The position numbers and the translations under genes are program-made. Source: Candidatus Aenigmatarchaeota archaeon (GTDB lineage: Archaea; Aenigmatarchaeota; Aenigmatarchaeia; QMZP01; QMZT01). Taken from it: a DNA stretch of 55,598 bases. The notes beneath the pieces were generated by a model. The model was not told the origin of the DNA and did not search any database. It saw nothing but the letters and a program-made list of their open reading frames with translations. The stretch spans positions 1 through 55,598 of the forward strand of contig JAFGDH010000010.1 in NCBI GenBank assembly GCA_016932215.1, given 5' to 3'. Shown here piece after piece: positions 10,762-26,902 of the stretch. The stretch's first letter is position 1. Each line of letters begins with the position of its first letter.

Positions 10762-11241
10762 TCAATCACCAATAATTAGAAATATATTCTTGAAGAATAT
10801 TTCAGCGTTTCTTAGACTTTCTTCAGCGGGTATCTTATTTGCTTGCGGAAGCTTCTGATAAGTGAAGTGTCCTCTTTTCTTCTTTTCGGTTCTGAAAATT
10901 CCAAGAAGTTCATCTGCCCTTACCGATATAGTTTTGTAAATCTTCAGTAGTTCGACATCAATGATGCCTTTTGAGACACATCTTTCGAATTCTTCATAAG
11001 TCTTTCTATGTTCTTCGGGTGCTTCCGTTTTAATGCCTTCCTTCATTAGGAATGCCTTTGCAGAGTAAAAGACACAATAATAACAAGCATTAATAACATT
11101 ACTGTAAAACGTAGTTGCAGGTTTCAGTTCCAGTTCATCCTTCAGATCGGCATCATCAGAAATTCTGAATAAAGACTTTGCAAGGTTAAGTTCGTTCTCC
11201 GCTCTTTGAAGATAAAGCTTTTCTCTATCCATCGAACCCAT
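10762..11241 (-). CDS. HEPN domain protein (UPF0332-like), putative toxin of HEPN/MNT pair
   Basis: A 159-residue all-helical protein with the HEPN pattern: an N-terminal 'A..EL..AK.LF' helix, the Y-x-N-V-I-N-A-C-Y-Y-C-V-F-Y-S-A-K helix near 48-65, and a late RGHFTY segment (about 122-127). HEPN proteins of such pairs are usually RNases. ATG 11241 overlaps the upstream nucleotidyltransferase gene by 17 bases and has a GGAGG site at the right distance. The region is more AT-rich than the rest of the window (17 G+C in 60 at 11581-11640), suggesting acquisition. Whether it is toxic is inference from the family. Confidence 0.8.
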   Translation of the reverse strand: MGSMDREKLYLQRAENELNLAKSLFRISDDADLKDELELKPATTFYSNVINACYYCVFYSAKAFLMKEGIKTEAPEEHRKTYEEFERCVSKGIIDVELLKIYKTISVRADELLGIFRTEKKKRGHFTYQKLPQANKIPAEESLRNAEIFFKNIFLIIGD

Positions 11242-11872
11242 GCTTGTTTGCCTCCTTCACAAGTTCATAAAATATCCCACCATTGAATGCTAATATGTGA
11301 TTCTTGTATATCTGCTTCCCAAGATTCTCTTCATCGTTTAGAAGCATTTCCACAAATTCTTCGAATGTTATTATATGGTCATGGATTGTAATACGAGATT
11401 TAATTTTTACATCATTAATGTATGGTTTTAATTTCTTAGAATTGTTAATAGATTCAACAAGAACACAAATATCAATGTCAGAGTCTTTTTTTTCCTTTCC
11501 TTCGGCATAACTTCCAAAGACTACAAGACAGTAGTTTTTCATGGGTATTTTTTCAATAAAATTTGACATTATTTCATTTTTTTTCATTTTCTGAAGCTTA
11601 AGTGATTCTAAAAAAATGAAATGATTCACAAGCGATGGATTTTTCATTGCGGCTTTGTATAAATTCATATTTCCTTTGGACCTTTTTACAAGAAGACCAT
11701 TATTTTCAAATTTAGAGAGTGTATTAAAGACCCACGGTTTTGACTTCTTTCCAGAAAGCATCATAATTTCAGAAATCCCGAATTCGTAGAATGGTTTATA
11801 TTTGAAATTGGATAATATTTCGAATTCTTCAGTAGACGGAATTTTAAATGAAATTTTATTTTTATTCGCCAT
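11225..11872 (-). CDS. HTH-nucleotidyltransferase (MNT), partner of HEPN protein
   Basis: A 215-residue protein. Residues about 20-90 look like a winged helix-turn-helix; residues about 110-200 form a minimal nucleotidyltransferase with the pattern GS-x10-D-x-D (VVFGSYAEG...DSDIDI). MNT proteins in such pairs act as antitoxins, in studied cases by AMPylating the HEPN partner; the HTH may autoregulate (inference). It overlaps the HEPN gene by 17 bases, the same overlap length as the raw reading frames of the second pair at 48685-49510. AT-rich composition. The tRNA-Gln gene lies 55 bases upstream. Confidence 0.8.
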   Translation of the reverse strand: MANKNKISFKIPSTEEFEILSNFKYKPFYEFGISEIMMLSGKKSKPWVFNTLSKFENNGLLVKRSKGNMNLYKAAMKNPSLVNHFIFLESLKLQKMKKNEIMSNFIEKIPMKNYCLVVFGSYAEGKEKKDSDIDICVLVESINNSKKLKPYINDVKIKSRITIHDHIITFEEFVEMLLNDEENLGKQIYKNHILAFNGGIFYELVKEANKHGFDG

Positions 11873-11926
11873 GAAAATATGTTATATTACTTATATAAAT
11901 AACTATCGTTACTTTTTAAAGTATAA

Positions 11927-11999
11927 TAGCCCCGCCAGGATTCGAACCTGGGTCACGAGGTCCAGAGCCTCGTATCCTTGGCCGCTAGACTACAGGGCT
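11927..11999 (-). tRNA. tRNA-Gln (anticodon CTG)
   Basis: The minus strand folds as a 73-nt tRNA. The acceptor stem pairs AGCCCTG (11999-11993) with CGGGGCT (11934-11928, one G-T pair), followed by discriminator A at 11927. The T-arm is CCAGG-TTCGAAT-CCTGG, the anticodon stem is CGAGG/CCTCG with loop CTCTGGA, and the D-arm region contains AGCGG. The anticodon CTG occupies 11963-11965 (minus strand), decoding CAG. The variable loop is four bases. CCA is not encoded and there is no intron. The 3' end faces the AT-rich HEPN/MNT pair. Confidence 0.95.
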
Positions 12000-12056
12000 A
12001 ATTCAACTAAAGAAGCACATGCCTTTCGTAAGTCACATATGCTTCAAACATTACTT

Positions 12057-12150: not shown

Positions 12151-13557
12151 ATGGATTTCGGTTTTGGCGGCTTCGATTCCGGGTTCTCGGATTTCGACGT
12201 GGATGTCGAGGAATTCGAGGTGAAGAAGGTAGGAAAGCACGAGAGGATGTTCAAGTTCGGGTTCGGCGGGAGCATAGCCGGAGAGGCAACTATTTACGGT
12301 AACCTTTTGATTTTCACGGCAATGGACGGTTACGTCTATTGCATAGACAAAAGAACTTCTGAAACGTTATGGACGAGAAAGACAGGAGGGTCTATGCATT
12401 TCGCGCCTGTAGTCGAAAACGAAAGAATAATAGTAGGGTCATACGACGGTTACGTCTACTGCATGGACACGGAAGGGAAGGAATTGTGGAAGTTCAAAAC
12501 AGGCGGCGAAATAGCCGGTTCAGGGAACACGGACGGCTCATTGGTCTTCGTGGGTTCGAGGGACGGCCACATGTATGCGATCGGACTGGAAACCGGGGAA
12601 GAGAAATGGAGGTTCAAGTGCGGGGACATGGTCGTCTCATCGGTTACAATTGCCGGGGAACATGTTTTTTTCGGGTCATTCGACGGCAACTTCTACTGCG
12701 TGGTCAAGGGGACGGGGAAGGAAGTCTGGAGGTTCAGGACCGGGGCGGAGGTGGCATTCAGGTTCAACGCGCCTGTTTTGGGTAACAGAATTTATTTCCC
12801 TTCCTTCGACAACTATCTTTACTGCGTTGATTTGAAAACCGGAAAAGAGATATGGAGGTTCAGCACTGGAAAATACGGAAGCACCGGAGGACCTTCATTG
12901 TACGACGGAAGGATATATCACGGATCCAGGGACGGGATATTTTACGCGATTGACGCCATCACAGGGAAAGAGATATGGAAAACTTTGATTTCGGATCCCG
13001 AGAATCCGATAAGCACGAAACCTCTCGTTTTTGGCGACAGGATATATTTCGGGACGGACGACCAGAACGTATACTGCATGGATATCGAAGGGAACGTTAT
13101 TTGGAGATACCATACAGGACACCAGATCGGATGCCCCCCGGTGTACAGCGAAGGAAGGATATACATCGGATCATTCGACTGCAACATGTACGCGATAGAT
13201 GCGGAAACCGGGGAGGAGTTATGGAGATACGCTACCAGCATTTCCACCCCATCCTACGCTCCGTCACCGATGGAGGCCTTCAGGGTGGAAGTGAAAAAGG
13301 AGATGGAAGAGGAACCTTTGGAGGAGAAGTATTCCGACAGGTCGCATGAAGCGTCAATGGACAGCGAATATTCATTCAAGTCGGAATATACGACAAAGTC
13401 TGAATACCAGACCAAGTCGGATTACCAGGTAAATTTCGTGGTTTTTGATGATAATATGACGCAGCTATTGCCTGCTTTAACGGGAATGGAGGAGTTTTTA
13501 TGGATTTCGATTTCGGAGGGTTTGATTCAGGATTCGATAATTTCGAGGCTGAGATAG
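12151..13557 (+). CDS. Beta-propeller array protein 1
   Basis: 468 residues, first gene of the first sub-operon, probably leaderless. The N-terminal segment (1-30) is a textbook copy of the FG/acidic motif. Eight blades occupy about 30-375, the last with Asp-Cys in GSFDCNMY. A short Asp-Pro-rich insertion (SDPENP) sits between blades 6 and 7. The tail has the most regular hexapeptides of the array: SEYSFK, SEYTTK, SEYQTK, SDYQVN (about 410-433), with Glu favoured over Asp. The sequence after the hexads diverges from the VIFEE motif seen in the other copies. Its last 58 bases overlap gene 2. Confidence 0.93.
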   Translation: MDFGFGGFDSGFSDFDVDVEEFEVKKVGKHERMFKFGFGGSIAGEATIYGNLLIFTAMDGYVYCIDKRTSETLWTRKTGGSMHFAPVVENERIIVGSYDGYVYCMDTEGKELWKFKTGGEIAGSGNTDGSLVFVGSRDGHMYAIGLETGEEKWRFKCGDMVVSSVTIAGEHVFFGSFDGNFYCVVKGTGKEVWRFRTGAEVAFRFNAPVLGNRIYFPSFDNYLYCVDLKTGKEIWRFSTGKYGSTGGPSLYDGRIYHGSRDGIFYAIDAITGKEIWKTLISDPENPISTKPLVFGDRIYFGTDDQNVYCMDIEGNVIWRYHTGHQIGCPPVYSEGRIYIGSFDCNMYAIDAETGEELWRYATSISTPSYAPSPMEAFRVEVKKEMEEEPLEEKYSDRSHEASMDSEYSFKSEYTTKSEYQTKSDYQVNFVVFDDNMTQLLPALTGMEEFLWISISEGLIQDSIISRLR

Positions 13558-14882
13558 AGGATTTCCAGCTGGTGAAGATAAAGAAGATGGACCGCCATCT
13601 CAGGGGAGGGGAGGGCGGAAGCATTCTGGCCACCCCCATGCTGAACAACGGGATGGTATATTTCACCAGCGCGGATCATTATGTTTACGCGGTGGACGTC
13701 GAAACCGGAGAGGAAAAATGGAGATTCCGGACGGACGGCAAGATGTTCTGCACGCCTGCGGTTTACGGTAATCTCGTTATCGTGGGGGCATACGACAGGA
13801 ACGTGTATGCGATAAATGAAAACGGTGAAGAAGTGTGGAGGTTCCAGACGGGCGGGGAGATCGCTTCGTCGCCTTTCGTGAATGATGGTATGGTTTTCAT
13901 CGGGTCGAACGACGGATACATGTATTGTATAAATGCAGAAACAGGGGAAGAGAAATGGAGGTTCAGGACCGGTGACTGGATTGGATCAAGCCCGGCTGTA
14001 TGGAATGAAAGACTGTACTTCGGTTCATATGACGGTTACATATACTGCCTTTCCCTCGGAGGCAAAGAGTTCTGGAGGTTCAAGATGGGAGCGGAAATAT
14101 GGGCCCTTCACGAATCACCCAGTGTTTGGGAGGGCGTCGTCTACTTCGCATCGATGGACGGATACCTTTACGCCATTGACGCTTACACCGGTCGGGAGGT
14201 ATGGAAGGTTAAAACGGGAAAATACGGCAATGCCATACAGCCATTCGTAAATGACGAATTCGTTCTGCAGCCTTCAAGGGACGGCATCCTTTTCGCGTTC
14301 GGAAGGGACGGGAAGGAGAAGTGGAGGTTCGATCTCGGGAACCTTCCGGCAGGGACGGTCGTTCACGGGGACAGGATATACCTGGGAAACGAGAGCGGAT
14401 ACTTCAGGTGCCTTAATCTGGAAGGGAAGGAGATATGGGGCTTCCAGACCGGAAACAAGATATTCGGAGGGCCTTTGTTCTACAAAGACATGATAATATT
14501 CGGCTCTTACGACTGCCATCTTTATTCCGTCAGTTTGTCGGGGGAAGAGAAATGGAGGTTCACGACTTCCAATCAGCAGCCAATCGAACTGCCGCCAGCG
14601 CATGATGCCTTCAGGCTGGAAGTCAAGAAGGAGCAAACCATAGACGAAACTTTTGAGGAAGACAAATACAAATCAAAGAAGGAGGCATCGGCTTCCTTGT
14701 CAGATTACAAAATAGAGAGTGAATACGCCTCAACATCCGATTACAAGGCAAAAAGTGATTATGACGTAAGCGTGGTCGTGTTTGAAGAGTTATTCGAGGG
14801 CGAAAGTTTATGGACATCTCATTCGGAGGTATTGATTCAGGCTTCGAAAACTTCGACGCTGAACTCGAGGATTTCGAGGTAA
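13500..14882 (+). CDS. Beta-propeller array protein 2
   Basis: 460 residues. The start at 13500 lies inside gene 1, 7 bases after GGAGG (13488-13492), and begins MDFDFGGFDSGF. Eight blades; blade 5 reads ASMDGYLY and is followed by the shared TGKYGN connector. Blade 8 carries GSYDCHLY. Tail hexads are SDYKIE, SEYAST, SDYKAK, SDYDVS. Phe/Trp-rich strands are otherwise conventional. The last 73 bases, the longest overlap of the array, double as the start of gene 3. Confidence 0.93.
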   Translation: MDFDFGGFDSGFDNFEAEIEDFQLVKIKKMDRHLRGGEGGSILATPMLNNGMVYFTSADHYVYAVDVETGEEKWRFRTDGKMFCTPAVYGNLVIVGAYDRNVYAINENGEEVWRFQTGGEIASSPFVNDGMVFIGSNDGYMYCINAETGEEKWRFRTGDWIGSSPAVWNERLYFGSYDGYIYCLSLGGKEFWRFKMGAEIWALHESPSVWEGVVYFASMDGYLYAIDAYTGREVWKVKTGKYGNAIQPFVNDEFVLQPSRDGILFAFGRDGKEKWRFDLGNLPAGTVVHGDRIYLGNESGYFRCLNLEGKEIWGFQTGNKIFGGPLFYKDMIIFGSYDCHLYSVSLSGEEKWRFTTSNQQPIELPPAHDAFRLEVKKEQTIDETFEEDKYKSKKEASASLSDYKIESEYASTSDYKAKSDYDVSVVVFEELFEGESLWTSHSEVLIQASKTSTLNSRISR

Positions 14883-16162
14883 AGCAAATAAAGAAGTTCG
14901 ACAGGATGTGGAAGTTCGGTTATGGAGGAAGCATAGCCACACCACCGGTCATTCATGAAGATAGGGTATATTTCGGTGCCCTCGACGGGTACATATATTG
15001 CGTGAGCATGGAAACGCACGAAGAGATATGGAAATTCAGGACCGACGGGGCGATAGACGCTGCGATAATGATTGACGAGAAAAATCTTTACGTCGGATCT
15101 TTCGACAAAAATTTCTATGCCATAAACCTGAAAACTGGGAAAGAGGTCTGGAGATTCCGGACTGGCGGGGAGATGTACAGTTCATGTTGCCTGAACAACG
15201 GGATGATTTATTTCGGCAACAGGGACGGTTACGTTTACGCACTGAACAAGACGGGGGAAATGGTCTGGAAATTCAGGACTGGAGACGAGGTAGCTTCTGC
15301 GCCTGCCATAAACGAAGGGAAACTCTACATAGGTTCTCACGACAAGTATCTTTATTGCCTAAACGCAGATACAGGGAAGGAGCTATGGAAGTCCAGGACC
15401 GGTGGAGAAGTGGTCAACAAAATTCCTATTCTTGTTCACAAAAATGTCGTTTATTTCGCATCATTCGATAATTATTTGTACGCATTGGACGAAAAAAGTG
15501 GTAGGGAGTTGTGGAGGTTCAAGACCGGTAAATACGGGAATTCCGGCGTTCCTGCGGTACATGGTGATGTCCTGTATTACGGGACGAGGGACGGTATATT
15601 TTATGCCATTTCATTGGAGGGAAAAGAGTTGTGGAGATTCGAGGTTGATGGCGAAATAAGAAGCCAGCCACCGGTCATTTACAAGGACATGATTTATTTC
15701 GGGGCGGGCGATAACTACCTGCATTGTCTAACTCTGGACGGCAAAGAGATGTGGAATTTCAGGACAGACGGTTATGTTTATCCGACAATGGGCATTAAAG
15801 ACGATGTGGTTCTGATTGGGTCGTGGGACTGCCACATGTACGCACTGGATGCGAATGAAGGGAAGGAACTATGGAGGTTCGCTACATCCACCATGGTACA
15901 GTCTTATATACCGCCCGCTTACGAGATATTCAAACTGGAGGTAAGAAAGTCAGAGGATTCGGAAAACGCAGATACAGGGATCAAGTATAAGGAGAAAAGG
16001 GAAAGGAGTGTATCACTTTCAGATTACCAGATCGAGACTGAATACACGACTACTTCGGATTACAAGACTGAAAGCGACTACGACGTCCAATGGGTGATTT
16101 TCGAATGGCTGACCGGATTTTCAGCACTTTCACGGAAGGGGTTAATCCGTCAAAAAATATAA
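14810..16162 (+). CDS. Beta-propeller array protein 3, end of first sub-operon
   Basis: 450 residues, the shortest copy. It starts inside gene 2 after a GAGGG site (14796-14800). Eight blades; a vicinal Cys-Cys occurs in blade 3 (SSCCLNNG) but is not shared by most paralogs. Blade 8 is GSWDCHMY. Tail hexads are SDYQIE, TEYTTT, SDYKTE, SDYDVQ. This copy does not overlap a next gene: it ends at 16162, 82 bases before gene 4. Its final residues, SRKGLIRQKI, still resemble the S-E-G-L-I-Q read-through tail of gene 1, hinting that an overlapping start once lay here. Confidence 0.93.
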   Translation: MDISFGGIDSGFENFDAELEDFEVKQIKKFDRMWKFGYGGSIATPPVIHEDRVYFGALDGYIYCVSMETHEEIWKFRTDGAIDAAIMIDEKNLYVGSFDKNFYAINLKTGKEVWRFRTGGEMYSSCCLNNGMIYFGNRDGYVYALNKTGEMVWKFRTGDEVASAPAINEGKLYIGSHDKYLYCLNADTGKELWKSRTGGEVVNKIPILVHKNVVYFASFDNYLYALDEKSGRELWRFKTGKYGNSGVPAVHGDVLYYGTRDGIFYAISLEGKELWRFEVDGEIRSQPPVIYKDMIYFGAGDNYLHCLTLDGKEMWNFRTDGYVYPTMGIKDDVVLIGSWDCHMYALDANEGKELWRFATSTMVQSYIPPAYEIFKLEVRKSEDSENADTGIKYKEKRERSVSLSDYQIETEYTTTSDYKTESDYDVQWVIFEWLTGFSALSRKGLIRQKI

Positions 16163-16193
16163 TAAAATTAAGCACTTTTAGGTAGTAAAAACA

Positions 16194-16237
16194 TTTATAA
16201 ATCAATAATTTAACTATTAACAGTTATATGGGGGAGG
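16194..16237 (+). promoter_or_regulatory. Internal promoter and ribosome binding site for genes 4-11
   Basis: The only non-overlapping junction holds TTTATAAAT (16194-16202), a strong TATA-like box; transcription would start about 16222-16226. GGGGGAGG (16230-16237) then provides a Shine-Dalgarno site 7 bases before ATG 16245. The 82-base gap is AT-rich. Genes 4-11 therefore form a second transcription unit. Confidence 0.65.
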
Positions 16238-16244
16238 CGATGCT

Positions 16245-17645
16245 ATGGAGTTTGGTTTCGGTGGTTTCGAAACGTCAGATTTCGGGGATTTTGACATAGA
16301 CATCGAGGATGTTGCTGTAAAGAAGACACGGAAATACGACAGGATATGGAAGGTCGGTTTCGGAGGCAGCATTTGCGGGAAGCCATTGTTCCATAACGGT
16401 TTTGTTATTTTCGGGTCCATGGATCATTATGTTTACGCCGTGGATATGGCAACCAGGGAGATCGTATGGAGGTTCAAGGGTAACGACATATTCCTGGATT
16501 CTTCCCCAATTCTTTTTGAGAACAGAGTATTCATAGGATCGTTCGACGGTTACATGTACTGCCTTGACGTCGATACAGGGCAGGAAATATGGAAGTTCAG
16601 GACCGGGGACAAGGTAAACACGACCGCATTCCCTGACCAGGGAAGAGTTTACTTCGGATCCAAGGATGGTTATACCTACTGCGTGGAACTGGAGAGCGGG
16701 AAGCTTATCTGGAGATTCGCCACCGGGGAACCTGTTACCTCATCGCCGGTAATAGTCGGTGAAAAAATACTGTTCGGCTCCTTTTCCGGCTACGTATACT
16801 GCCTGAACAAGGAAAACGGGCAGGAAACGTGGAGATTCAGGACAGGAGCGGAGATAGAGAACGATTATCCGTTACTGGTGAAAAACGGGATTCTCTACGT
16901 GGGATCATTCGACAATTATCTTTATGCCATCGGGATCGAAAAGGGCAACGAGATATGGAGGTTCAAGACCGGTAAGTATGGGAACTGCGGTATTCCAAAG
17001 TTACATAATAAAGTGCTTTACTATGGTTCAAGGGACGGGATTCTTTATGCCTTGACCATGGAAGGGAAGGAGCTATGGAGGTTCCAGACCGAGAAGGAAA
17101 TAATAGACAAGGGTCCTTTGGTTTACAACGAAAAGATTTATTTCGGAGCGGGAGACGGAAATGTCTACTGTTTGTCAACGAACGGGAAGGAGCTATGGAG
17201 GTTCCATACCCATGGTGGGGTATATACTTCGGTTGTAATGAATGACGGGGTTATATACTTCGGTTCATGGGACTGCCACTTTTACGCGGTTGACCCGGAC
17301 ACCGGAGAAGAGTTATGGAGGTTCCAGACTTCCACAAGCACGCAGGCTTTCATCCCGAATCCCTTCGAGTGCTTCAAGGTTGAGGTCACGAAGGATGCAA
17401 TTATCGAGGAAAGCATAACAGAGGAAAAATACAAGGATAAAAAAGAAGCGAGTGCCTCTTTGTCTGATTACCAGATAGAGACGGAATACGCTTCTACATC
17501 AGATTACAAAACGAAGAGCGACTATGACGTTAATATGGTGATATTCGAGGAATGCAGATTAATGGAGGAATTGATATGGAAATCGGGTTCGGTGGATTTG
17601 ATTCCACAAATTTCGGGGACTTCGACGTGGACGTTGAGGAAGTAA
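16245..17645 (+). CDS. Beta-propeller array protein 4, first of second sub-operon
   Basis: 466 residues. The N-terminus MEFGFGGFETSDFGDF has two extra residues in the aromatic/acidic segment, a form shared with genes 5 and 6, which suggests these three are closest relatives. Eight blades run about 30-375: GSMDHYVY, GSFDGYMY, GSKDGYTY, GSFSGYVY, GSFDNYLY, GSRDGILY, GAGDGNVY, GSWDCHFY. Tail hexads are SDYQIE, TEYAST, SDYKTK, SDYDVN, followed by MVIFEE. It has its own promoter. The last 70 bases overlap gene 5. Confidence 0.94.
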   Translation: MEFGFGGFETSDFGDFDIDIEDVAVKKTRKYDRIWKVGFGGSICGKPLFHNGFVIFGSMDHYVYAVDMATREIVWRFKGNDIFLDSSPILFENRVFIGSFDGYMYCLDVDTGQEIWKFRTGDKVNTTAFPDQGRVYFGSKDGYTYCVELESGKLIWRFATGEPVTSSPVIVGEKILFGSFSGYVYCLNKENGQETWRFRTGAEIENDYPLLVKNGILYVGSFDNYLYAIGIEKGNEIWRFKTGKYGNCGIPKLHNKVLYYGSRDGILYALTMEGKELWRFQTEKEIIDKGPLVYNEKIYFGAGDGNVYCLSTNGKELWRFHTHGGVYTSVVMNDGVIYFGSWDCHFYAVDPDTGEELWRFQTSTSTQAFIPNPFECFKVEVTKDAIIEESITEEKYKDKKEASASLSDYQIETEYASTSDYKTKSDYDVNMVIFEECRLMEELIWKSGSVDLIPQISGTSTWTLRK

Positions 17646-18967
17646 CTGTAAGGAAGAAGAAGACTTACGACAGGGTCTGGAGAACGGGCGTTGGCGGAAG
17701 TATCGACAACAACATCCTGATACACGAAGGCATACTTTATTACGGAGCACAGGACGGATATCTGTACGCAACGGATTCCGTAACTGGGAAAGTGATATGG
17801 ACTTTCAAAACCAATGACCGGATTCTTGGATCATCACCGACCATAGAAGGGGATACCCTCGTAATAGGATCATTTGACGGTTATCTTTATGCGATTGACA
17901 TACGTAACCACCAGGAAATATGGAAGTTCAGGACAGGCGCGGAGATTTTCTCATCTCCTTTCATTTATGAACATAAGATATATTTCGGCAGCAAGGACAG
18001 TTTCGTTTACTGTTTAGACATGGAGGGGAAGGAAATGTGGAGGTTCAAGACAGGAAACCCGGTTGCTTCTGCTCCGACCGTAAAGGACGGAAGAGTATTC
18101 ATCTCTTCATACGACCATAACATGTATTGCTTGGATTCTGAAACCGGGAAGGAGATATGGAGATTCGTAACAGGGGAAGAGATGATAAACAATCTCCCGT
18201 TCCTCGTGCATGAAGGTGTCGTTTATTTCGGGAGCCATGACTGCAACATGTACGCTGTAAGTGTTATAGATGGAAAAGAACTCTGGAGGTTCAGGGCGGG
18301 AAAGTATGGCATAGGAGGAAGCAATCCTACCATATACAAGGGAGTCATTTATTTCGGAGACAGGGAAGGGACGCTGTTCGCTTTGACCATGGAAGGGAAA
18401 GAAATATGGAGGTTCGAAACCGGAGAACCTATAATCGCACAGCTTCCGCAGATTTACAAAGACAAGATAGTATTCGGGTGCGAGGATAACAATCTTTACA
18501 TTTTGGATCTGAACGGGAAGGAAATCTGGAGGTTCAGGACCGGAGGCAAGCTTCTCGGAAAGGCGCTGATTCATGAAGGGAGGATTTACTTCGGTTCATG
18601 GGACTGCAACCTTTACTGCGTTGACCTCGAAACCAAGGAAGAGGTATTTCGAACGCCAACATCCACTATGGTCCAGTCGTTCATCCCGCCTGCTCACGAA
18701 TCTTTCGAAATCGAGGTTAAGAAGGAGACTCATGTAGAGGACGCGATTTCGGAAGACAGGTACAAGTCGAAGAACGAGCAGTCGGCATCTTTATCGAACT
18801 ACGCAATTGAGACTGAGTACACGACAAAATCCGATTACAAGAATAAATCCGATTACGATGTCAGCATGGTGATTTTTGAAGAGAATAAACTTATGGAGGA
18901 ATTGGTATGGAAATCGGATTCGGTGGATTTGATTCCGCAAGCTTCGGGGATTTTGAGACGGAACTAG
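17576..18967 (+). CDS. Beta-propeller array protein 5
   Basis: 463 residues from ATG 17576, which follows a GGAGG site inside gene 4; an in-frame ATG at 17552 exists but precedes the Shine-Dalgarno site and the family N-terminus MEIGFGGFDST, so it is rejected. Eight blades. Blade 5 departs from the usual DNYLY form (GSHDCNMY), so this copy has Asp-Cys in both blade 5 and blade 8 (GSWDCNLY). Tail hexads are SNYAIE, TEYTTK, SDYKNK, SDYDVS. The last 61 bases overlap gene 6. Confidence 0.94.
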   Translation: MEIGFGGFDSTNFGDFDVDVEEVTVRKKKTYDRVWRTGVGGSIDNNILIHEGILYYGAQDGYLYATDSVTGKVIWTFKTNDRILGSSPTIEGDTLVIGSFDGYLYAIDIRNHQEIWKFRTGAEIFSSPFIYEHKIYFGSKDSFVYCLDMEGKEMWRFKTGNPVASAPTVKDGRVFISSYDHNMYCLDSETGKEIWRFVTGEEMINNLPFLVHEGVVYFGSHDCNMYAVSVIDGKELWRFRAGKYGIGGSNPTIYKGVIYFGDREGTLFALTMEGKEIWRFETGEPIIAQLPQIYKDKIVFGCEDNNLYILDLNGKEIWRFRTGGKLLGKALIHEGRIYFGSWDCNLYCVDLETKEEVFRTPTSTMVQSFIPPAHESFEIEVKKETHVEDAISEDRYKSKNEQSASLSNYAIETEYTTKSDYKNKSDYDVSMVIFEENKLMEELVWKSDSVDLIPQASGILRRN

Positions 18968-20292
18968 AAGATGTGGAAGTGAAGAAGACCGGGAGGTTCG
19001 ACCGGATGTGGGAAGTGGGTTTCGGCGGAAGCATAAACAACACGCCCACAGTTGTCGGCAATATTGCATATTTCGGAGCCATGGACGGTTATTTATACGC
19101 AATAGATTTGGAAAATCAGGAGGAAGTGTGGAGGTTCAAGGCCAGCCACGGGATTGAGGAATCCAGTCCAATGTATTCGGAAGGTATGCTTTATTTCGGG
19201 ACGTTCGACGGGAACTTCTATGCGGTGGATGTAAACACGGGCAAGGAAGTGTGGAGGTTCCGCGCTTCAGACCAGATAGACGTTGCGTCATTCGTCCACA
19301 AAGATTTCGTGATATTCGGGGCGAAAGACGGGGCATTCTACTGCCTTGACAAACGCACCGGAATAGAAAAATGGAGATTCAGAACCGGCCAGCCGATAAT
19401 ATCCGCTCCAAGCGCGTTCGATAACCTCGTTCTCGGGGGTTCGGCTGACGGGCACATGTACTGCATTGATTTGGAGACCGGCAAAGAGGTCTGGAGATTC
19501 AGGACAGGGGCAGAGATACATAATGACAACAACATGCTTATACATGAAGGGATTGCTTACTTTGCGTCATTCGACAATTATCTTTATGCAGTGGATGCAA
19601 GGACAGGGAAGGAGATATGGAGGTTCAGGACAGGGAAATACGGAAATGCGAGCACGCCTGCCGTTCATGCTGACATGGTTTATCACACGTCAAGAGACGG
19701 GTATCTTCACTGCATAGACAAGGAAACCGGGAAGGAAGTATGGAGGTTCAGGATAAGGGGGGATGACAGTATAGACTCGAAGCCTCTTATATTCAGGAAC
19801 AGGATATACTTCGGTGCTGGTGATTCATACCTATATTGTATTGACCTGCAGGGAAAACTCGTTTGGGAATTCAAGACTTCCAGCCACATATACACTTCCC
19901 CAGTGCTCTGGAAGGATATGCTGCTGGTCGGTGCATGGGACTGCCACCTGTATGTTCTGGACTGCGAAACGGGCCATGAAATCTGGAGGTTCGCGACTTC
20001 CACGTTGACCCAGTCGCCTGTTCCATCCGCTTTCGAAAACTTCAGGGTGGAGGTAAAGAAGGAAACCAATATTGAAGATGCGGTTCCAGAGGATAAGTAC
20101 AAATCAAAAAAGGAATCGAGCGTTTCGCTTTCGGATTATCAGATAGAGACGGAATACTCCTCTACATCAGACTACAAAACAAAGAGCGACTACGATGTCA
20201 AGTGGATAATTTTCGAAAACAATGAATTGATGGAGGAACCTTTATGTCATTCGAATTCGGATCTGAAAGCGAATTTTCAGACTTCGATGTAG
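18907..20292 (+). CDS. Beta-propeller array protein 6
   Basis: 461 residues. ATG 18907 lies 8-9 bases after GGAGG within gene 5. The N-terminus MEIGFGGFDSASFGDF is nearly identical to gene 5. Eight blades; blade 8 is GAWDCHLY, with an extra Cys two strands later (VLDCETG). Tail hexads are SDYQIE, TEYSST, SDYKTK, SDYDVK, then WIIFEN. The last 49 bases overlap gene 7. Confidence 0.94.
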   Translation: MEIGFGGFDSASFGDFETELEDVEVKKTGRFDRMWEVGFGGSINNTPTVVGNIAYFGAMDGYLYAIDLENQEEVWRFKASHGIEESSPMYSEGMLYFGTFDGNFYAVDVNTGKEVWRFRASDQIDVASFVHKDFVIFGAKDGAFYCLDKRTGIEKWRFRTGQPIISAPSAFDNLVLGGSADGHMYCIDLETGKEVWRFRTGAEIHNDNNMLIHEGIAYFASFDNYLYAVDARTGKEIWRFRTGKYGNASTPAVHADMVYHTSRDGYLHCIDKETGKEVWRFRIRGDDSIDSKPLIFRNRIYFGAGDSYLYCIDLQGKLVWEFKTSSHIYTSPVLWKDMLLVGAWDCHLYVLDCETGHEIWRFATSTLTQSPVPSAFENFRVEVKKETNIEDAVPEDKYKSKKESSVSLSDYQIETEYSSTSDYKTKSDYDVKWIIFENNELMEEPLCHSNSDLKANFQTSM

Positions 20293-21611
20293 ACGTTGAA
20301 GATACCCAGATAAAGAAGGTTGCGAAATACGACCGGGTCTTTAGCGTTGAGCAGGGCGGGGGAAGCATATTCATTACCCCTAAGATTGTTAATGGCATCG
20401 TTTACTTCGGTGCGTCTGACAGTTATTTTTACGCCGTCAGCATAGACACCAACGAGACGCTGTGGAAATTCAGGACGGGCGGACCGATACTGATAGGCGC
20501 GGAATACAGCGATGGCATCGTATATTTCGGTTCTTATGACGGATATCTATATGTGCTGAATGCTTCCAGCGGGGAAATGCTCTGGAGGTTCAGAACGAAC
20601 GACAAGATATGCTCGATGCCGCTGGTGATTGAAAATTCGGTATTATTCGGTTCAAGGGACGGCTATTTTTACAGGATCTCCCTTGAAGGGAAGGAGATCT
20701 GGAGGTTCAAGACAGGTGACGACACTTCCTTTTCCCCGGTTTCGGACGGGAAAAACGTTTTCGTTGGATCATATGACCATTATCTTTATTGCATTGATTT
20801 GGAAACCGGCAGGGAGGTATGGAGATTCGGGACCGGCGGCGAAATAGTCTGCCTTAACAGATGCGTTATAGAAAACGGAATCATATTCATCAACTCCATG
20901 GACAACTATTGCTATGCCATAGAAACGGAAAGCGGGAAAGAGATGTGGAGGTTCAATTTCGGGAAACATGGGACCGGCGGATCGGCTCCGAGATTATACA
21001 ACAACAAGGTTTACATCGGATCCAGGGATAATTACGCGATATGCATTGATGCTGAAAGCGGGAAAGAGATGTGGAGGTTCAGGGCAGGATCCGTTATAGA
21101 CGGGTGCACGGTCCAGGAAGGGATATGCTACTTCGGTTCCGACGATTACATGGTTTATGCGGTTGATTCTGAAAGCGGGAAAGAGATGTGGAGGTTCCGG
21201 ACAGGTGGTGAATGTTTCATGACACCTGCATTTTACGAAGGAAAGATATTTTTCGGTTCGGCTGACTGCAGGCTTTACTGCCTGGACGCGTACAAAGGGA
21301 AGGAGATATGGTCATTCCAGACCAGCAGCAACGCAAAATCAAAATTCGCTCCCCTTTACGAGGAATTCAAAGTCGAAATAAAACACGAATCTTTTGTCGA
21401 GGATTCTGTAAAAGAAGACAAATACAATGAAAATACTGTTTCCCTTTCCAATTACAAAATAGAGAGTGAATATTCTACAACGTCGGATTACAAGACCAAA
21501 TCTGATTACGACGTGAGCATGGTCATGTTTGAAGAAAACGAATTAACGGAGGTGCTTTTATGGACTTCGAGTTCGGTAGTTTTGATTCCGGATTTTCTGA
21601 CTTCGATGTAG
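20244..21611 (+). CDS. Beta-propeller array protein 7
   Basis: 455 residues. The N-terminus MSFEFGSESEFSDFDVDVED lacks the GGFDS core but keeps the aromatic/acidic pattern, and a G-G-G-S-I replaces G-G-S-I at the first blade. Eight blades. The ends of three consecutive blades share an identical 27-base segment (20928-20954, 21054-21080, 21171-21197) coding for E-S-G-K-E-M-W-R-F, evidence of recent within-gene duplication or conversion. Blade 8 is GSADCRLY. Tail hexads are SNYKIE, SEYSTT, SDYKTK, SDYDVS. The last 52 bases overlap gene 8. Confidence 0.94.
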   Translation: MSFEFGSESEFSDFDVDVEDTQIKKVAKYDRVFSVEQGGGSIFITPKIVNGIVYFGASDSYFYAVSIDTNETLWKFRTGGPILIGAEYSDGIVYFGSYDGYLYVLNASSGEMLWRFRTNDKICSMPLVIENSVLFGSRDGYFYRISLEGKEIWRFKTGDDTSFSPVSDGKNVFVGSYDHYLYCIDLETGREVWRFGTGGEIVCLNRCVIENGIIFINSMDNYCYAIETESGKEMWRFNFGKHGTGGSAPRLYNNKVYIGSRDNYAICIDAESGKEMWRFRAGSVIDGCTVQEGICYFGSDDYMVYAVDSESGKEMWRFRTGGECFMTPAFYEGKIFFGSADCRLYCLDAYKGKEIWSFQTSSNAKSKFAPLYEEFKVEIKHESFVEDSVKEDKYNENTVSLSNYKIESEYSTTSDYKTKSDYDVSMVMFEENELTEVLLWTSSSVVLIPDFLTSM

Positions 21612-22924
21612 ATGTTGAAAAAATAACTGTCACCAAAATAAAAACCTACGACAGGATATGGAAAATTGGAATGGGGGGTAGTATTGACAGTAGTCCAGTT
21701 ATTAAAAATGGTGTAGTTTATTTTGGTTGTTGCGATCATCATGTTTACGCCGTTGAAATAAAAACCGGAAAAGAATTATGGAGAATCAAATTAGACGGAG
21801 TGATTGCAGATTCTACTCCAATTTTTAATGACGATATATTTTTCATTGGATCATTCGATGGTAAAATCTACGCTATCAATTCCATATCCGGTAAAATAGA
21901 ATGGACATTCCAAACAGGAGACAGTATTTTTGTTTCGGGAGCACTGGAAAATGGAAAATTCTATTTTGGGTCTAAAGACAAAAACGTATATTGTATTTCT
22001 CTCGAAGGTAAGGAGATATGGAGATTCGGAACAGGTGGACCAGTGGCTTCAATGCCTAGACTTTTTGAAGGAAGGATATATGTAACATCATACGATCATA
22101 ACATGTACTGTTTGGATGCAGAAACGGGGAAAGAAATATGGAGATTTAGAACTGGGGATGAAATGGTTAATGATATACCATTTTCTATACATGATGATAT
22201 CATATACTTCGCTAGCATGGACAGCTTTGTTTATGCAGTAGATGTAAACAATGGAAAACTTATCTGGAGGAAAAAAACAGGCAATCATGGTAATTCCGGA
22301 GGAACACCCACAATAAGAAATGGAATTCTATACCATGGTTCAAGAGATGGAATATTATATTCACTAAACCCTAAAACAGGGGAAGAGTTCTGGCAGTTCA
22401 ACGCCGGAAGTGCAATAATAGATCAGAGTTATGTTCTCTATGAAGATCAGATCATATTTGGCAGTGAGGATGGAAATCTATTTTCCGTGAGCACGGAGGG
22501 GAAGGAGTTATGGAGGTTTAGAACAGGAGGGAAAATATACAACGAACCTTTGATATATGAGGGTAAGATATATTTCGGATCTTGGGATTGCCATTTGTAT
22601 TGTTTAGATATTAAAACAAGAAAATTGATTTGGAGATTCGCAACATCTATACAAGTACCTTCTTCAAAGCCGCCATTAAATGAGGTGTTCAAAACAGAGG
22701 TTAAAATTGATACTAGAGTTGATGATTTTGCAAGTAAAGAAAGATACAAAGAGAAAACAGTTTCTGTTACTAATTATCAGATTGAAAGTGAATATTCCAC
22801 AACTTCGGAATACAAAACAGAAAGCGACTATGATGTCCAGTGGGTAGTTCTGGAGGAAAATATATTAATGGAGGAACTCATATGGACTTCGAAAACGTCT
22901 CAATGGATTTTTCAACAGAGATGA
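21560..22924 (+). CDS. Beta-propeller array protein 8, AT-rich copy
   Basis: 454 residues; GGAGG at 21548-21552 precedes the ATG. Protein features are typical: MDFEFGSFDSGFSDFDVDVE, eight blades, blade 8 GSWDCHLY, tail hexads TNYQIE, SEYSTT, SEYKTE, SDYDVQ. Base composition is not: 22141-22200 has 18 G+C in 60, against 31 in 60 at 20701-20760 in gene 7. Codons shift accordingly (AGA for Arg, AAA, AAT, TTT). The change begins shortly after the start and ends near the stop. A vicinal Cys-Cys occurs in blade 1 (FGCCDHH). The last 43 bases overlap gene 9. Confidence 0.93.
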   Translation: MDFEFGSFDSGFSDFDVDVEKITVTKIKTYDRIWKIGMGGSIDSSPVIKNGVVYFGCCDHHVYAVEIKTGKELWRIKLDGVIADSTPIFNDDIFFIGSFDGKIYAINSISGKIEWTFQTGDSIFVSGALENGKFYFGSKDKNVYCISLEGKEIWRFGTGGPVASMPRLFEGRIYVTSYDHNMYCLDAETGKEIWRFRTGDEMVNDIPFSIHDDIIYFASMDSFVYAVDVNNGKLIWRKKTGNHGNSGGTPTIRNGILYHGSRDGILYSLNPKTGEEFWQFNAGSAIIDQSYVLYEDQIIFGSEDGNLFSVSTEGKELWRFRTGGKIYNEPLIYEGKIYFGSWDCHLYCLDIKTRKLIWRFATSIQVPSSKPPLNEVFKTEVKIDTRVDDFASKERYKEKTVSVTNYQIESEYSTTSEYKTESDYDVQWVVLEENILMEELIWTSKTSQWIFQQR

Positions 22925-24249
22925 CCGATCTGATTGTAGAGAAGCCGAAGTTTTACACAGGCACGTGGACTGTCGGCTTCGGGGGCAGCATTTCCTCGGT
23001 CGGCGTAATAAAGGATGACGTACTCTATTTCGGCTCCTGCGACTATTACATCTACGCGATCGACCTCAATTCGAGGGAGGTTGCCTGGAGGTTCAGGGGG
23101 AACGGGAGCTTTGTCGAGGCGAGACCTGTGATAGAAAACGGACATCTTTATCTGGGGTGTTACGACGGCAACATGTACAAGATAGACATAAGCAACGGGG
23201 AAATGGTATGGAAATTCAAGACGGGCGACAGGATAACATCCAACGCTTACGTTTACGAGGGAAAGGTGTATTTCGGTTCATTTGACAATCATGCTTACTG
23301 CATCGACGCCGGTACGGGGAAGGAGATATGGAGGTTCAAGACGGGCGACTGGGTAGGGTCCGGATGCGTAGTCCACGACAAAGAGCTTTATGTCGGGTCA
23401 CATGACGGTAACCTTTACTGCCTGAACCCGGAAACGGGGCAGGAGATATGGAGGTTCAGGGCAGGGGGGTGCATTCTTCATTATTATCCTTTTTCGATAC
23501 ATGATAACGTGCTTTTCTTGACATCATACGACAAGAAGATTTATGCCATAGACCTCAATGAAAGGAGAGAGTTGTGGAGGTTCGAGACCGGGCGGGCGGT
23601 GGAAACCAATCCTCTCATATATGAAGGAAAGGTGTATTTCGGTTCATGGGACGGGAACTTTTACGTGCTTGACGCCGCTACCGGGAAGGAAGTGTGGAGG
23701 TTCAGGACCAACAATAGGGTAGGTGACATGAAGCCGTTAATACACAGCGGAACAATATACTTCGGATCGACCGATGGTCACATGTATGCTCTGACGACGG
23801 ATGGGAAGATCGTTTGGAAATTCAGAACAGAGGGGGAAGTTTGGAGTGACGCTCTAGAATGGAACGGCCTTATAATTTTCGGCTCTTGGGACTGTAACCT
23901 TTACATCGTAGACGCCAAGACCGGCAAAGAGGAGTGGAGGTTCCAGACGTCCACAAAGGTTCAGGCCCCACTTGATATAATTGAAAAGGTGATCATCAAG
24001 CCTGAACTCAAGGAGACCCAGCTGAATATCGACATCGGGAAGGATTTCTACACCAGCAGGGACCAGAACGTTTCTCTCGATCAGTACGAGATCAAGTCGG
24101 AATACGCTACGACCAGTGATTATAAAACTAAATCAGACTATGATGTCAGGCTGGTAATTTTTGATGATAATGAAATTATGGAGGAACTAGTATGGATTTC
24201 GGATTTGGAGAATTCGATTCAGGGTTTGATGACCTCAGCGTCGAGATAG
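22882..24249 (+). CDS. Beta-propeller array protein 9
   Basis: 455 residues from ATG 22882, which follows GGAGG; the in-frame ATG at 22840 is rejected because it precedes that site. This copy has the most divergent ends: the N-terminus MDFENVSMDFSTEM lacks the FGGFDS motif, and the linker after the propeller (KVIIKPELKETQLNI) lacks the usual VEVKKE. Blade 5 is TSYDKKIY rather than DNYLY and the GKYGN connector is missing. Eight blades remain, ending GSWDCNLY. Tail hexads are DQYEIK, SEYATT, SDYKTK, SDYDVR. The last 58 bases overlap gene 10. Confidence 0.93.
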   Translation: MDFENVSMDFSTEMTDLIVEKPKFYTGTWTVGFGGSISSVGVIKDDVLYFGSCDYYIYAIDLNSREVAWRFRGNGSFVEARPVIENGHLYLGCYDGNMYKIDISNGEMVWKFKTGDRITSNAYVYEGKVYFGSFDNHAYCIDAGTGKEIWRFKTGDWVGSGCVVHDKELYVGSHDGNLYCLNPETGQEIWRFRAGGCILHYYPFSIHDNVLFLTSYDKKIYAIDLNERRELWRFETGRAVETNPLIYEGKVYFGSWDGNFYVLDAATGKEVWRFRTNNRVGDMKPLIHSGTIYFGSTDGHMYALTTDGKIVWKFRTEGEVWSDALEWNGLIIFGSWDCNLYIVDAKTGKEEWRFQTSTKVQAPLDIIEKVIIKPELKETQLNIDIGKDFYTSRDQNVSLDQYEIKSEYATTSDYKTKSDYDVRLVIFDDNEIMEELVWISDLENSIQGLMTSASR

Positions 24250-25559
24250 AGGAATTCGAACTAAAGAAGACGAAGAAATTCACGAGAATTTTCGACCTTG
24301 GCAACGGAGGAAGCATCGCATACTGCAGCGTAAATGGCGGGAAGTTATTTTTCGGTGACTGTGACGGATACGTATACTGCGTTGACATGGAAGGTAATGA
24401 AATCTGGAAATTCAGGACCGGAGGAATAATAGTCGATTCCCCGAAATTTCACGGTAAATTCATGTATGTCGGATGTTTTGACGGAAACCTTTACTGCATA
24501 GATTCTGAAACGGGTGAAGAGGTCTGGAGGTTCAGGACGTCTGACAAGGTGTACGGTTCCGGTATTACCGGGGATGGTGTAGTGTATTTCGGATCCCTGG
24601 ATAATTATTTTTACGCGGTTAACGCTATCACCGGAGAGGAGATCTGGAGGTTCAGGACCGGAGGGGAAATCGTATCCACACCAAACATTCATGAGAATTT
24701 TGTAATGTTCGGGTGCTATGACGGTAATTTTTACTGCCTCGACAAGAACACAGGAAAGGAGATCTGGAGATTCCATACAGACGATCACATCCAGTCAGAA
24801 CAGACGCCACCGGTCGTTGATGGTATTGTTTACTTCACCTCGTGGGATAATTACCTTTATGGAATAAGGACTGATGATGGGAAGGAGATTATGAGGTTCA
24901 AAGCAGGCAAGCTTGGACTTTCAGGTGCACCTGTTATGAATGGTAACCTTCTGATTTTCGGAAGCAGGGAAGGAATTCTTTATGCCATTGACAAAAACAC
25001 TTCCAAGGAGGTATGGAGGTTCACGTTCGGGAAAATAACGATAGGGGCAAGCGTAATGAACGGTAAGGTATACTTCGGCTCGGAGGACTACAATTTCTAC
25101 TGCCTGGATGCTGACACCGGGAAGGAAATCTGGAGGTTCAGGACCGGATCTTACACTTACGGGAGACCTGTCTTTTGTAATGGATTGGTGTTCGTGGCGT
25201 CGTGGGACTGCCACGTATACGCGCTGAATTCTGAAACCGGGGAAGAGGTATGGAGATTCGCCGCAAGCTCCCAGGAAAGGGCGTACCAGCCGCCGCCACA
25301 CAGGGAGTTCGAGATGGTCGTTAAGAAGGAAATGCATATAGAGGATGCCATTTCGGAAGACAGGTACAAGTCGAAGAACGAACATTCAGTATCGTTGTCG
25401 GACTACCAGATAGAGACGGAATATTCGACCACTTCGGATTACAAAACAAAAAGTGACTATGACGTAAACATGGTCATTTTCGAGGGTTTTATTGGAGGTA
25501 ATGACTTATGGATTTCGGATTCGGTGACTTTGACTCCGGCTTCTCTGATTTCGATGTAG
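24192..25559 (+). CDS. Beta-propeller array protein 10
   Basis: 455 residues; ATG 24192 follows GGAGG inside gene 9. N-terminus MDFGFGEFDSGFDDLSVEIE. Eight blades; blade 5 is TSWDNYLY, blade 8 ASWDCHVY. The post-propeller linker contains an unusual Q-P-P-P-H-R segment. The tail stretch E-D-A-I-S-E-D-R-Y-K-S-K-N-E is shared exactly with gene 5, and hexads are SDYQIE, TEYSTT, SDYKTK, SDYDVN. The last 52 bases overlap gene 11. Confidence 0.94.
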   Translation: MDFGFGEFDSGFDDLSVEIEEFELKKTKKFTRIFDLGNGGSIAYCSVNGGKLFFGDCDGYVYCVDMEGNEIWKFRTGGIIVDSPKFHGKFMYVGCFDGNLYCIDSETGEEVWRFRTSDKVYGSGITGDGVVYFGSLDNYFYAVNAITGEEIWRFRTGGEIVSTPNIHENFVMFGCYDGNFYCLDKNTGKEIWRFHTDDHIQSEQTPPVVDGIVYFTSWDNYLYGIRTDDGKEIMRFKAGKLGLSGAPVMNGNLLIFGSREGILYAIDKNTSKEVWRFTFGKITIGASVMNGKVYFGSEDYNFYCLDADTGKEIWRFRTGSYTYGRPVFCNGLVFVASWDCHVYALNSETGEEVWRFAASSQERAYQPPPHREFEMVVKKEMHIEDAISEDRYKSKNEHSVSLSDYQIETEYSTTSDYKTKSDYDVNMVIFEGFIGGNDLWISDSVTLTPASLISM

Positions 25560-26902
25560 AGGTGGAGGAGATAAAGGTAAAGAAGATAAAGAAGTTCGAC
25601 AGGATATGGTCTGCCACCCCCGGTGGTTCAATAGTCAGGACGACCCTCATTGACGGAATATTGTATTACGGATCCTTCGACGGATATCTTTATGCACTCG
25701 ATATTGAAAATAGAAAAATTATCTGGACTATAAAACTGGGGGATATTATTGATTCTTCCCCTGTTTGTTCGGAAGGGATGCTATATCTCGGCGGGAGGGA
25801 TGGTAACTTCTATTGCGTCGATTCACGAAACGGGGAAATAATGTGGAAATACAGGCTCGGCGGGGCAATGGCAGGATATGCTGGAGTGAGGAACGGCATC
25901 GTATACACTTCATCTCAGGATAATTATTTTTACGCCATTGACTCAAAAACCGGGGAACTTGTATGGAGGTTCAGGACCGGGGATGATATGTGCTGCGCTC
26001 CCGGGATCCATGGGGACAATGTCATATTCGGTTCGTTTGACGGTTATGCTTACTGTGCGAACGGAAGAACAGGGAAGGAAGTCTGGATGTTCAAAACTGG
26101 AGCAGAGGTGTTCTGCCCAACACATCTCACCGTTCATGGCAATATAGTTTACGTACCGTCTTTCGACAGCTATCTTTATGCTCTCGATGCCGATACCGGA
26201 AGAATGGTCTGGAAAACAAAACTGGGAGAATATGGAGTGGCAATATCACCGACAATACATGAAGGGAGGATATACATCGGTGCAAGGGACGGGAATCTCT
26301 TCTGCTTGGACATGAAAGGTAGGGAGATATGGAAATTCAGGACAGGAAAGGTGATCGAATCCAAGGTCTCGATAAATAACGGGAAAATATATTTCGGCTC
26401 GGAGGACGGGAATATTTATTGTTTGACAGCAGAAGGGAAGGAGATATGGAGACACAGGATCGACGGTGAAATATGGGACGAGCCCAAGATATTCAAAGGA
26501 AACCTGGTGTTCGGGGGTGTCGATTGCATGGTTCATTATCTTGACCCGGAAAATGGTGACGAGATGTGGAACGTCCAGACGAGCACTTCCAGGAAATCGG
26601 TATGGTCCAGCCCGTACGAGATGTTCAGAGTTGAAGTCAAGAAGGAGACTTCCCTTGAAAGTTCCGACGAAAGTAAATACAAGTCTAAAAAGGAATGTAC
26701 GGTTTCCCTTACCGATTATCACATTGAAAGCGAGTATTCGGCATGTTCGGACTACAAAACGAAGAGCGATTATGATATTAGTATGGTCATCTTTGAGGAA
26801 AGTAATATAAAATTAACCGAACAATTACCTATCATGAACTCCGTTACAACCGCGACAACGGGCAGCAAAACGACAACGACAGGCACCACTACATCCTTGT
26901 AG
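25508..26902 (+). CDS. Beta-propeller array protein 11, last of the array
   Basis: 464 residues; GGAGGT at 25494-25499 precedes ATG 25508. N-terminus MDFGFGDFDSGFSDFDVEVE, very close to genes 1 and 8. Eight blades; the last is the most diverged (GGVDCMVHYLD) yet keeps the Asp-Cys pair. A vicinal Cys-Cys lies in blade 4 (DDMCCAPG). Tail hexads are TDYHIE, SEYSAC, SDYKTK, SDYDIS, then MVIFEE. With no following gene to overlap, the protein ends in about 20 mostly Thr, Gly and Ser residues, a tail not seen in any other copy. Confidence 0.93.
   Translation: MDFGFGDFDSGFSDFDVEVEEIKVKKIKKFDRIWSATPGGSIVRTTLIDGILYYGSFDGYLYALDIENRKIIWTIKLGDIIDSSPVCSEGMLYLGGRDGNFYCVDSRNGEIMWKYRLGGAMAGYAGVRNGIVYTSSQDNYFYAIDSKTGELVWRFRTGDDMCCAPGIHGDNVIFGSFDGYAYCANGRTGKEVWMFKTGAEVFCPTHLTVHGNIVYVPSFDSYLYALDADTGRMVWKTKLGEYGVAISPTIHEGRIYIGARDGNLFCLDMKGREIWKFRTGKVIESKVSINNGKIYFGSEDGNIYCLTAEGKEIWRHRIDGEIWDEPKIFKGNLVFGGVDCMVHYLDPENGDEMWNVQTSTSRKSVWSSPYEMFRVEVKKETSLESSDESKYKSKKECTVSLTDYHIESEYSACSDYKTKSDYDISMVIFEESNIKLTEQLPIMNSVTTATTGSKTTTTGTTTSL

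Follow-up and report, generated by a model that had tools for sequence, protein, structure and literature searches.

Tandem eight-bladed PQQ-type propellers with a common tyrosine-hexad tail in Candidatus Aenigmatarchaeota

Introduction

Beta-propellers of the pyrroloquinoline quinone (PQQ) type include the designed proteins Cake8 and v31Bagel8 and the structure 3hxj, which was deposited as 'Pyrrolo-quinoline quinone'. BamB (YfgL), a non-catalytic eight-bladed propeller with a role in protein interaction, is an exported lipoprotein that is usually present in a single copy; it serves the outer membrane, and we know of no outer membrane in archaea of the Aenigmatarchaeota kind. Here we describe eleven tandem propeller genes in a 55,598-nucleotide (nt) stretch of DNA (the window; contig JAFGDH010000010.1 of assembly GCA_016932215.1) from a Candidatus Aenigmatarchaeota genome of 1,137,756 bases in 43 contigs. 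The encoded proteins have the same blade sequence and the same eight-bladed fold as the PQQ-type propellers, to which they add a disordered N-terminal motif, a C-terminal tail of tyrosine-containing hexads, overlapping multi-copy arrays and paralog-specific faces. We found that the tails are most alike within a genome, whereas the propeller bodies are most alike among orthologs.

Another DPANN archaeon, ARMAN Mia14, is also small and host-dependent and also has propellers; however, those are secreted Kelch/YVTN surface propellers fused to CARDB/PKD modules (PMC5498576), whereas the proteins of the window are stand-alone PQQ-type propellers without an export signal. Aenigmatarchaeota have been inferred to be symbionts, and the paper on the phylum mentions neither propellers nor PQQ (PMC8407114). 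With the terms used we found no open-access paper on propellers in Aenigmatarchaeota, which is not proof of absence, and the family is apparently undescribed in the open-access literature searched.

Results

The span 12151-26902 of the window is filled by 11 tandem open reading frames on the + strand, all of which are PQQ-type propeller genes (Table 1). In AlphaFold models of the products of genes 4 and 5, which drew on 66 and 22 aligned relatives, respectively, we found eight four-stranded blades with a predicted local distance difference test (pLDDT) score mostly above 90; in both models, disorder covers roughly the first 20 residues and the stretch that starts near residue 384 and runs to the C-terminus. 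The other nine proteins align to the modelled ones with few gaps. All 11 score far above the cut-offs of the Pfam models PF13360 (PQQ_2) and PF13570 (Beta-prop_ACSF4), and the best Foldseek matches are designed PQQ-type propellers of eight to ten blades, with BamB also among the nearest folds (TM-score about 0.75 by target). By both blade score and closed multi-blade fold, the proteins belong to the PQQ-type beta-propeller superfamily. When five of the genes were tested against NCBIfam, no match passed its cut-off: the BamB model TIGR03300 gave 161-181 bits as compared to a cut-off of 285.2, the quinoprotein dehydrogenase model TIGR03075 gave at most about 120 bits as compared to 480, and TIGR03074 and TIGR04528 were also far under their cut-offs. 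Patterns modelled on the PROSITE quinoprotein signatures matched 0 of 110 members of the family. Separately, we observed an invariant cysteine in the last blade (motif GSWDC; C344 of gene 5) across 22 diverse aligned members.

Hydropathy, a crude test, showed neither signal peptide nor lipobox nor transmembrane segment in the members examined, and none of the 110 has a lipobox in its first 40 residues. A loose hydropathy threshold is passed by four of the 110; one of these has a real hydrophobic stretch, but it lies ahead of a plausible internal start. From this absence of signals we infer a probably cytoplasmic, non-catalytic family. A first-pass annotation of the window had described eleven same-strand, eight-bladed paralogs of 450-468 residues (aa) without signal peptide, membrane anchor or catalytic domain; the open reading frames, the two models and the alignment of the other nine proteins confirm the former part, and hydropathy, the NCBIfam models and the signature scan bear out the latter.

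The disordered C-terminal tail consists of hexads with the consensus S-[ED]-Y-x-x-K. Three tyrosines at this spacing (Y-x5-Y-x5-Y) are present in 104 of the 110 members, including all 11 window genes, as compared to 2.5% of shuffled tails, and four are present in 91 of the 110 as compared to 0.1% of shuffled tails. As a control, we looked at windows from the propeller body and found three spaced tyrosines in just 1 of 209. In an extended form, the hexad repeat would have S-Y-x and E-x-K on opposite sides. Genomes, contigs, loci and families are given here by our own labels (G, C, L and f). The tail of family f5 reads Y-K-S-R-I-T-Y-Q-V-S-T-Q-Y, that of family f4 is looser (Y-x6-Y), and class-level relatives, for example L200, end in SPYKSENPYMNKPAYKMDTRYKS. 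Many dispersed copies terminate exactly at the last hexad. The C-terminal domain (CTD) of RNA polymerase II and similar tails are disordered tyrosine repeats, and the tail that all propellers share may, purely as a functional analogy, be likened to them in being disordered, C-terminal and made up of short repeats with a tyrosine; the repeat is a different one and there is no sequence relation.

A search of nine genomes with a profile of the tail matched only propellers, plus short fragments. Candidate tail carriers other than propellers were rejected: L192 represents propellers at a contig end, and the one fragment read, L189 (G002:C9:36384-36446), a 55-aa open frame, is a decayed propeller copy that retains the 3' end with the tyrosine tail intact.

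To compare tails and bodies, we measured similarity between paralogs of the same genome and between orthologs of different genomes. Tails are more similar among same-genome paralogs (0.74) than among cross-genome orthologs (0.59), and this was the case in 82 of 92 comparisons. In contrast, the bodies show the reverse (0.44 for paralogs and 0.59 for orthologs), with the paralogs higher in 3 of 92 comparisons. The genome effect on the tail is present in most genome pairs; G001, G004, G006 and G007, whose tails are of a single type, show it weakly or not at all when compared with one another, which leaves about three independent tail types overall. At identical tail residues within the window, the fraction of identical codons is 0.43 as compared to 0.42 expected, indicating that synonymous codons are saturated. 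Because codon identity is not above chance, recent gene conversion (DNA copying) is not supported as the cause of the likeness among tails.

In a tree of 100 propeller bodies, genes 2, 4, 5, 6, 8, 9 and 11 group with members from other genera, mostly with near-full support, and genes 1, 3, 7 and 10 have no well-supported ortholog. Members resembling genes 4, 5 and 6 occur in collinear order in G000, G005 and G007, and the orthologs of gene 4 stand first in the arrays of G004, G005 and G007; many of the paralogs are old and their order is conserved across genera. To identify where on the propeller the paralogs differ, we mapped differences by structural element. The excess of paralog over ortholog difference is 0.253 in the DA and BC loops, which sit on one face of the propeller, as compared to 0.065 in the AB and CD loops (Mann-Whitney p = 5e-10). 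The face is paralog-specific yet conserved among orthologs, which is the opposite of a fast-diversifying repertoire. Since the positions that distinguish paralogs are kept in orthologs from other genera, a separate, fixed ligand or partner is probable for each paralog.

The dispersed propellers L133 (G004:C44) and L148 (G006:C93) are nearly identical (branch lengths 0.019 and 0.006), whereas other orthologs are about 60% identical across genera; this near-identity reflects either recent transfer or cross-contamination of the metagenome-assembled genomes (MAGs). In a genome of family f4, a short f1-type array (L089, G034:C1:446346-448855) lies beside the genome's own f4-type copies; its members are closest to window gene 8 and the G004 ortholog of that gene, the array includes an interrupted member and a tail masked by N. 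Horizontal transfer is a possible origin of this array.

At the other end of the proteins, the N-terminal motif is rich in F and D and ends in E-x(2-3)-[VIM]-[KR]. It is widespread in families f1 and f5, and in f4 another N-terminal end replaces it. The first-pass annotation had the motif in all genes except gene 9 and a tail shared throughout. Ten window genes do carry the motif, but gene 9 still holds its second half, and the divergence of its N-terminal end is also present in its orthologs of G001 and G005. The shared tail stands as far as the hexads up to about VIFEE, where conservation stops; the array proteins then run 20-30 residues further, and these residues are the ribosome-binding site and start of the next gene read in another frame ('MEELIWKSGSVDLIP', for example, is the start MEIGFGGFDS read out of frame). 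As protein this extension is unconserved (difference 0.78-0.80). Thus, part of what had been taken for a shared end is mere read-through into the next gene start. In the last genes of two arrays, gene 11 (26840-26902) and L086, we noticed threonine-rich ends past the conserved tail (TTATTGSKTTTTGTTTSL and GRTTTTTTFC).

The read-through arises from gene overlaps that the first-pass annotation had missed. In the window, nine of the ten junctions are out-of-frame overlaps of 43-73 nt, all in one phase, and the tenth is an 82-nt gap. Across six genomes, the next start lies in the same phase at 35 of 36 junctions, with the upstream frame running through the start codon. The junction spacers come in eight lengths from 11 to 134 nt, all of them 2 mod 3 at 35 of the 36 junctions, and two junctions are 4-nt ATGA overlaps in the same phase. 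The arrays of family f5 have no gene overlap. We read the fixed-phase read-through as putative translational coupling, perhaps from an ATGA ancestor. An origin of the phase in selection for the nearest stop was rejected, as a stop would come sooner in the third frame (median 23 nt as compared to 49 nt in the upstream frame). The fixed phase had also raised the idea of programmed frameshifting into polyproteins, which was rejected as well, with no slippery site seen at the junctions by eye and no common slip position.

Protein lengths are 450-468 aa once the ribosome-binding site and the conserved N-terminal motif had been used to correct the starts of gene 5 (17576 instead of 17552) and gene 9 (22882 instead of 22840). 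Gene 1 has a TATA-like TTTAAAATTTAT immediately upstream and no Shine-Dalgarno sequence (sequence inspection only), and its transcript is probably leaderless. The gap between genes 3 and 4 is a probable second promoter with a ribosome-binding site serving genes 4-11. Elsewhere in the genome there are about eight further copies, on contigs C13, C26, C34 and C43, which had also escaped the first-pass annotation; the family comprises about 20 genes, or about 2% of the genome.

Table 1. Features of the propeller array (window coordinates).
Feature	Coordinates	Strand	Size	Remarks
Propeller gene 1	12151..13557	+	468 aa	
N-terminal motif, gene 1 (type example)	12151..12231	+		MDFGFGGFDSGFSDFDVDVEEFEVKK; similar at every gene start, partial in gene 9
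Tyrosine-hexad tail, gene 1	13351..13449	+		
Overlap of genes 1 and 2 (example)	13500..13557	+	58 nt	gene 2 start within gene 1 3' end; GGAGGAG just upstream
Propeller gene 2	13500..14882	+	460 aa	ortholog in G001
Tyrosine-hexad tail, gene 2	14673..14789	+		
Propeller gene 3	14810..16162	+	450 aa	sole gene without overlap with its successor
Tyrosine-hexad tail, gene 3	15995..16105	+		
Gap between genes 3 and 4	16163..16244	+	82 nt	TATA-like TTTATAAAT and GGGGGAGG, as judged by eye from the sequence
Propeller gene 4	16245..17645	+	466 aa	orthologs in four other genera; AlphaFold model
Tyrosine-hexad tail, gene 4	17439..17552	+		
Propeller gene 5	17576..18967	+	463 aa	corrected start; orthologs in four other genera; AlphaFold model
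Tyrosine-hexad tail, gene 5	18767..18883	+		
Propeller gene 6	18907..20292	+	461 aa	orthologs in four other genera
Tyrosine-hexad tail, gene 6	20104..20217	+		
Propeller gene 7	20244..21611	+	455 aa	
Tyrosine-hexad tail, gene 7	21429..21536	+		
Propeller gene 8	21560..22924	+	454 aa	orthologs in G004 and G034
Tyrosine-hexad tail, gene 8	22748..22858	+		
Propeller gene 9	22882..24249	+	455 aa	corrected start; divergent N-terminal end
Tyrosine-hexad tail, gene 9	24058..24165	+		
Propeller gene 10	24192..25559	+	455 aa	
Tyrosine-hexad tail, gene 10	25371..25484	+		
Propeller gene 11	25508..26902	+	464 aa	ortholog in G001
Tyrosine-hexad tail, gene 11	26684..26800	+		

A search for further arrays and recurring neighbours, which the first-pass annotation had proposed, found arrays across relatives and housekeeping genes beside them. 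In the same GTDB family, strong matches number 4 to 21 in eight of nine genomes, and the ninth, G003, which is 92% complete, has none; weaker but still strong matches occur throughout the order and in further families of the same class, and the end motifs are retained between genera, between families and at class level. All of the nearest named records that have an array are Candidatus Aenigmatarchaeota MAGs, save one match to a Thermotogae MAG (L076) that is probably misbinned. No viral relatives were found. An XPG/FEN1-type nuclease lies upstream of the array in five genomes; downstream we found threonyl-tRNA synthetase (window and G001), aRF1 (G004 and G007) or NadC (G006), and thymidylate kinase is also among the neighbours. 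Dispersed copies lie amid unrelated genes. There is no dedicated partner gene in the array flanks, which suggests that any partner would be the family itself or the product of a gene located elsewhere. The PADLOC models of anti-phage defence matched none of the 10 window proteins scanned out of 11.

Several other features of the window lie near the array or beyond it. Two overlapping genes adjoining it on the - strand (10762-11872) encode a 215-aa protein with a nucleotidyltransferase domain and a 159-aa HEPN-like protein, the latter just under the Pfam cut-off, and look like an MNT/HEPN toxin-antitoxin pair; a tRNA-Gln (CTG; 11926-12000, - strand) lies between this pair and the array. A 767-aa subtilase (Peptidase_S8; 7403-9706, - strand) lies between the XPG-like nuclease and the array, and we saw no counterpart of it in the array flanks of other genomes. 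Two very long open reading frames, of 1991 aa (49620-55595, - strand) and 1303 aa (30717-34628, + strand), have no confident Pfam match.

Discussion

Taken together, these data give about an even chance that the propellers are non-catalytic, predicted cytoplasmic recognition modules of Aenigmatarchaeota with fixed, distinct specificities, united by a common tail. For the tail to be uniform within a genome, either the tails must be compatible with one another or they must share a single receptor. The tail would dock all members of one genome onto a common element, which may be each other's tails (hetero-assembly in the extended form) or a single hub protein specific to that genome; a second contact may come from the N-terminal motif, and translational coupling would help to make the members together. 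Such docking would yield an intracellular scaffold, or recognition assembly, of multiple specificities. A more specific proposal is tentative and somewhat doubtful: mutual binding of all the propeller tails in a genome, or their binding to one dedicated hub, would join up to about 20 different recognition propellers, made in register through translational coupling, into one heteromeric intracellular body, a modular, multi-specific scaffold for an archaeon that depends on a host and has a minimal genome. That common ends might serve a shared partner or co-assembly had been suggested by the first-pass annotation, and this idea gains support from a tail that evolves with the genome and not with the ortholog; the differing faces that it had noted reappear in the contrast between DA and BC loops and AB and CD loops, the homologues lack export signals, and the end motifs extend well beyond this genome.

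Several points weigh against the docking of recognition modules through their tails. The tail contrasts are not independent, as they come down to about three tail types, and codons would be just as saturated if gene conversion had happened long ago and purifying selection had followed. The N-terminal motif lacks a genome effect (paralogs more alike than orthologs in 46 of 88 comparisons). Neutral inheritance of a single array layout through duplication could account for part of the phase conservation. In both AlphaFold monomer models (genes 4 and 5) the tail is unordered and undocked, and docking onto its own propeller was not seen with either 22 or 66 aligned sequences. Ligands, partners and assemblies of the family are all hypothetical.

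The main rival is export by a non-classical route for a role at the cell surface, such as attachment to a host archaeon, with the tail as a C-terminal export or anchoring signal that co-evolves with its exporter or anchor. It predicts the same uniformity of the tail, which is common, C-terminal and disordered, follows the genome and not the ortholog, and is the exact end of many dispersed copies. A symbiotic lifestyle inferred for the phylum (PMC8407114) and the secreted propellers of another DPANN archaeon (PMC5498576) also speak for it. However, the members examined have no N-terminal signal, lipobox or transmembrane segment, and the arrays have no exporter gene next to them. In archaea, the known Sec and Tat routes rely on N-terminal signals, and we consider export rather unlikely. 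A diversifying recognition repertoire, as in immunity or host recognition, with new paralogs and variable faces selected for change, would fit the copy number, which ranges from 0 to 21 among the genera of a single family, and the genes that have no well-supported ortholog (1, 3, 7 and 10). The first-pass annotation had favoured a variable repertoire; in the adaptive sense this does not hold up, as the paralogs are in many cases old and collinear with their orthologs, the distinguishing face positions are conserved in orthologs of other genera, the neighbours are housekeeping genes and PADLOC gave no match, all of which makes such a repertoire clearly unlikely.

That the proteins are common PQQ-dependent dehydrogenases or assembly factors of the BamB type whose signals went unnoticed would fit the Pfam matches to PQQ_2 and the ACSF4 propeller, the nearness of the BamB fold and a TIGR03300 match that stays under its cut-off, but it is very improbable given the BamB and dehydrogenase scores far below NCBIfam cut-offs, the 110 members without a quinoprotein signature, the missing signal and lipobox, and the outer membrane that BamB serves, which to our knowledge such archaea do not have. 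Neutral tandem expansion without specific roles, which unequal crossing-over makes easy and which would suit the one decayed copy end in G002 (L189), is highly improbable when 11 of 11 frames are open, ortholog bodies are about 0.6 identical across genera with face-specific constraint, and the tails are conserved at the protein level though their synonymous codons are saturated.

DPANN archaea of about 1 Mb seldom retain large paralog families, and here one non-enzymatic family is conserved at the level of the class. If the reading of tail-united recognition modules is true, the family would be an example, open to direct test, of old paralogs that keep separate binding faces while a docking tail evolves in concert and, for archaea, a rare case of a multi-propeller system predicted to be intracellular. 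Binding studies in this uncultured lineage can aim precisely at the tail and the face positions.

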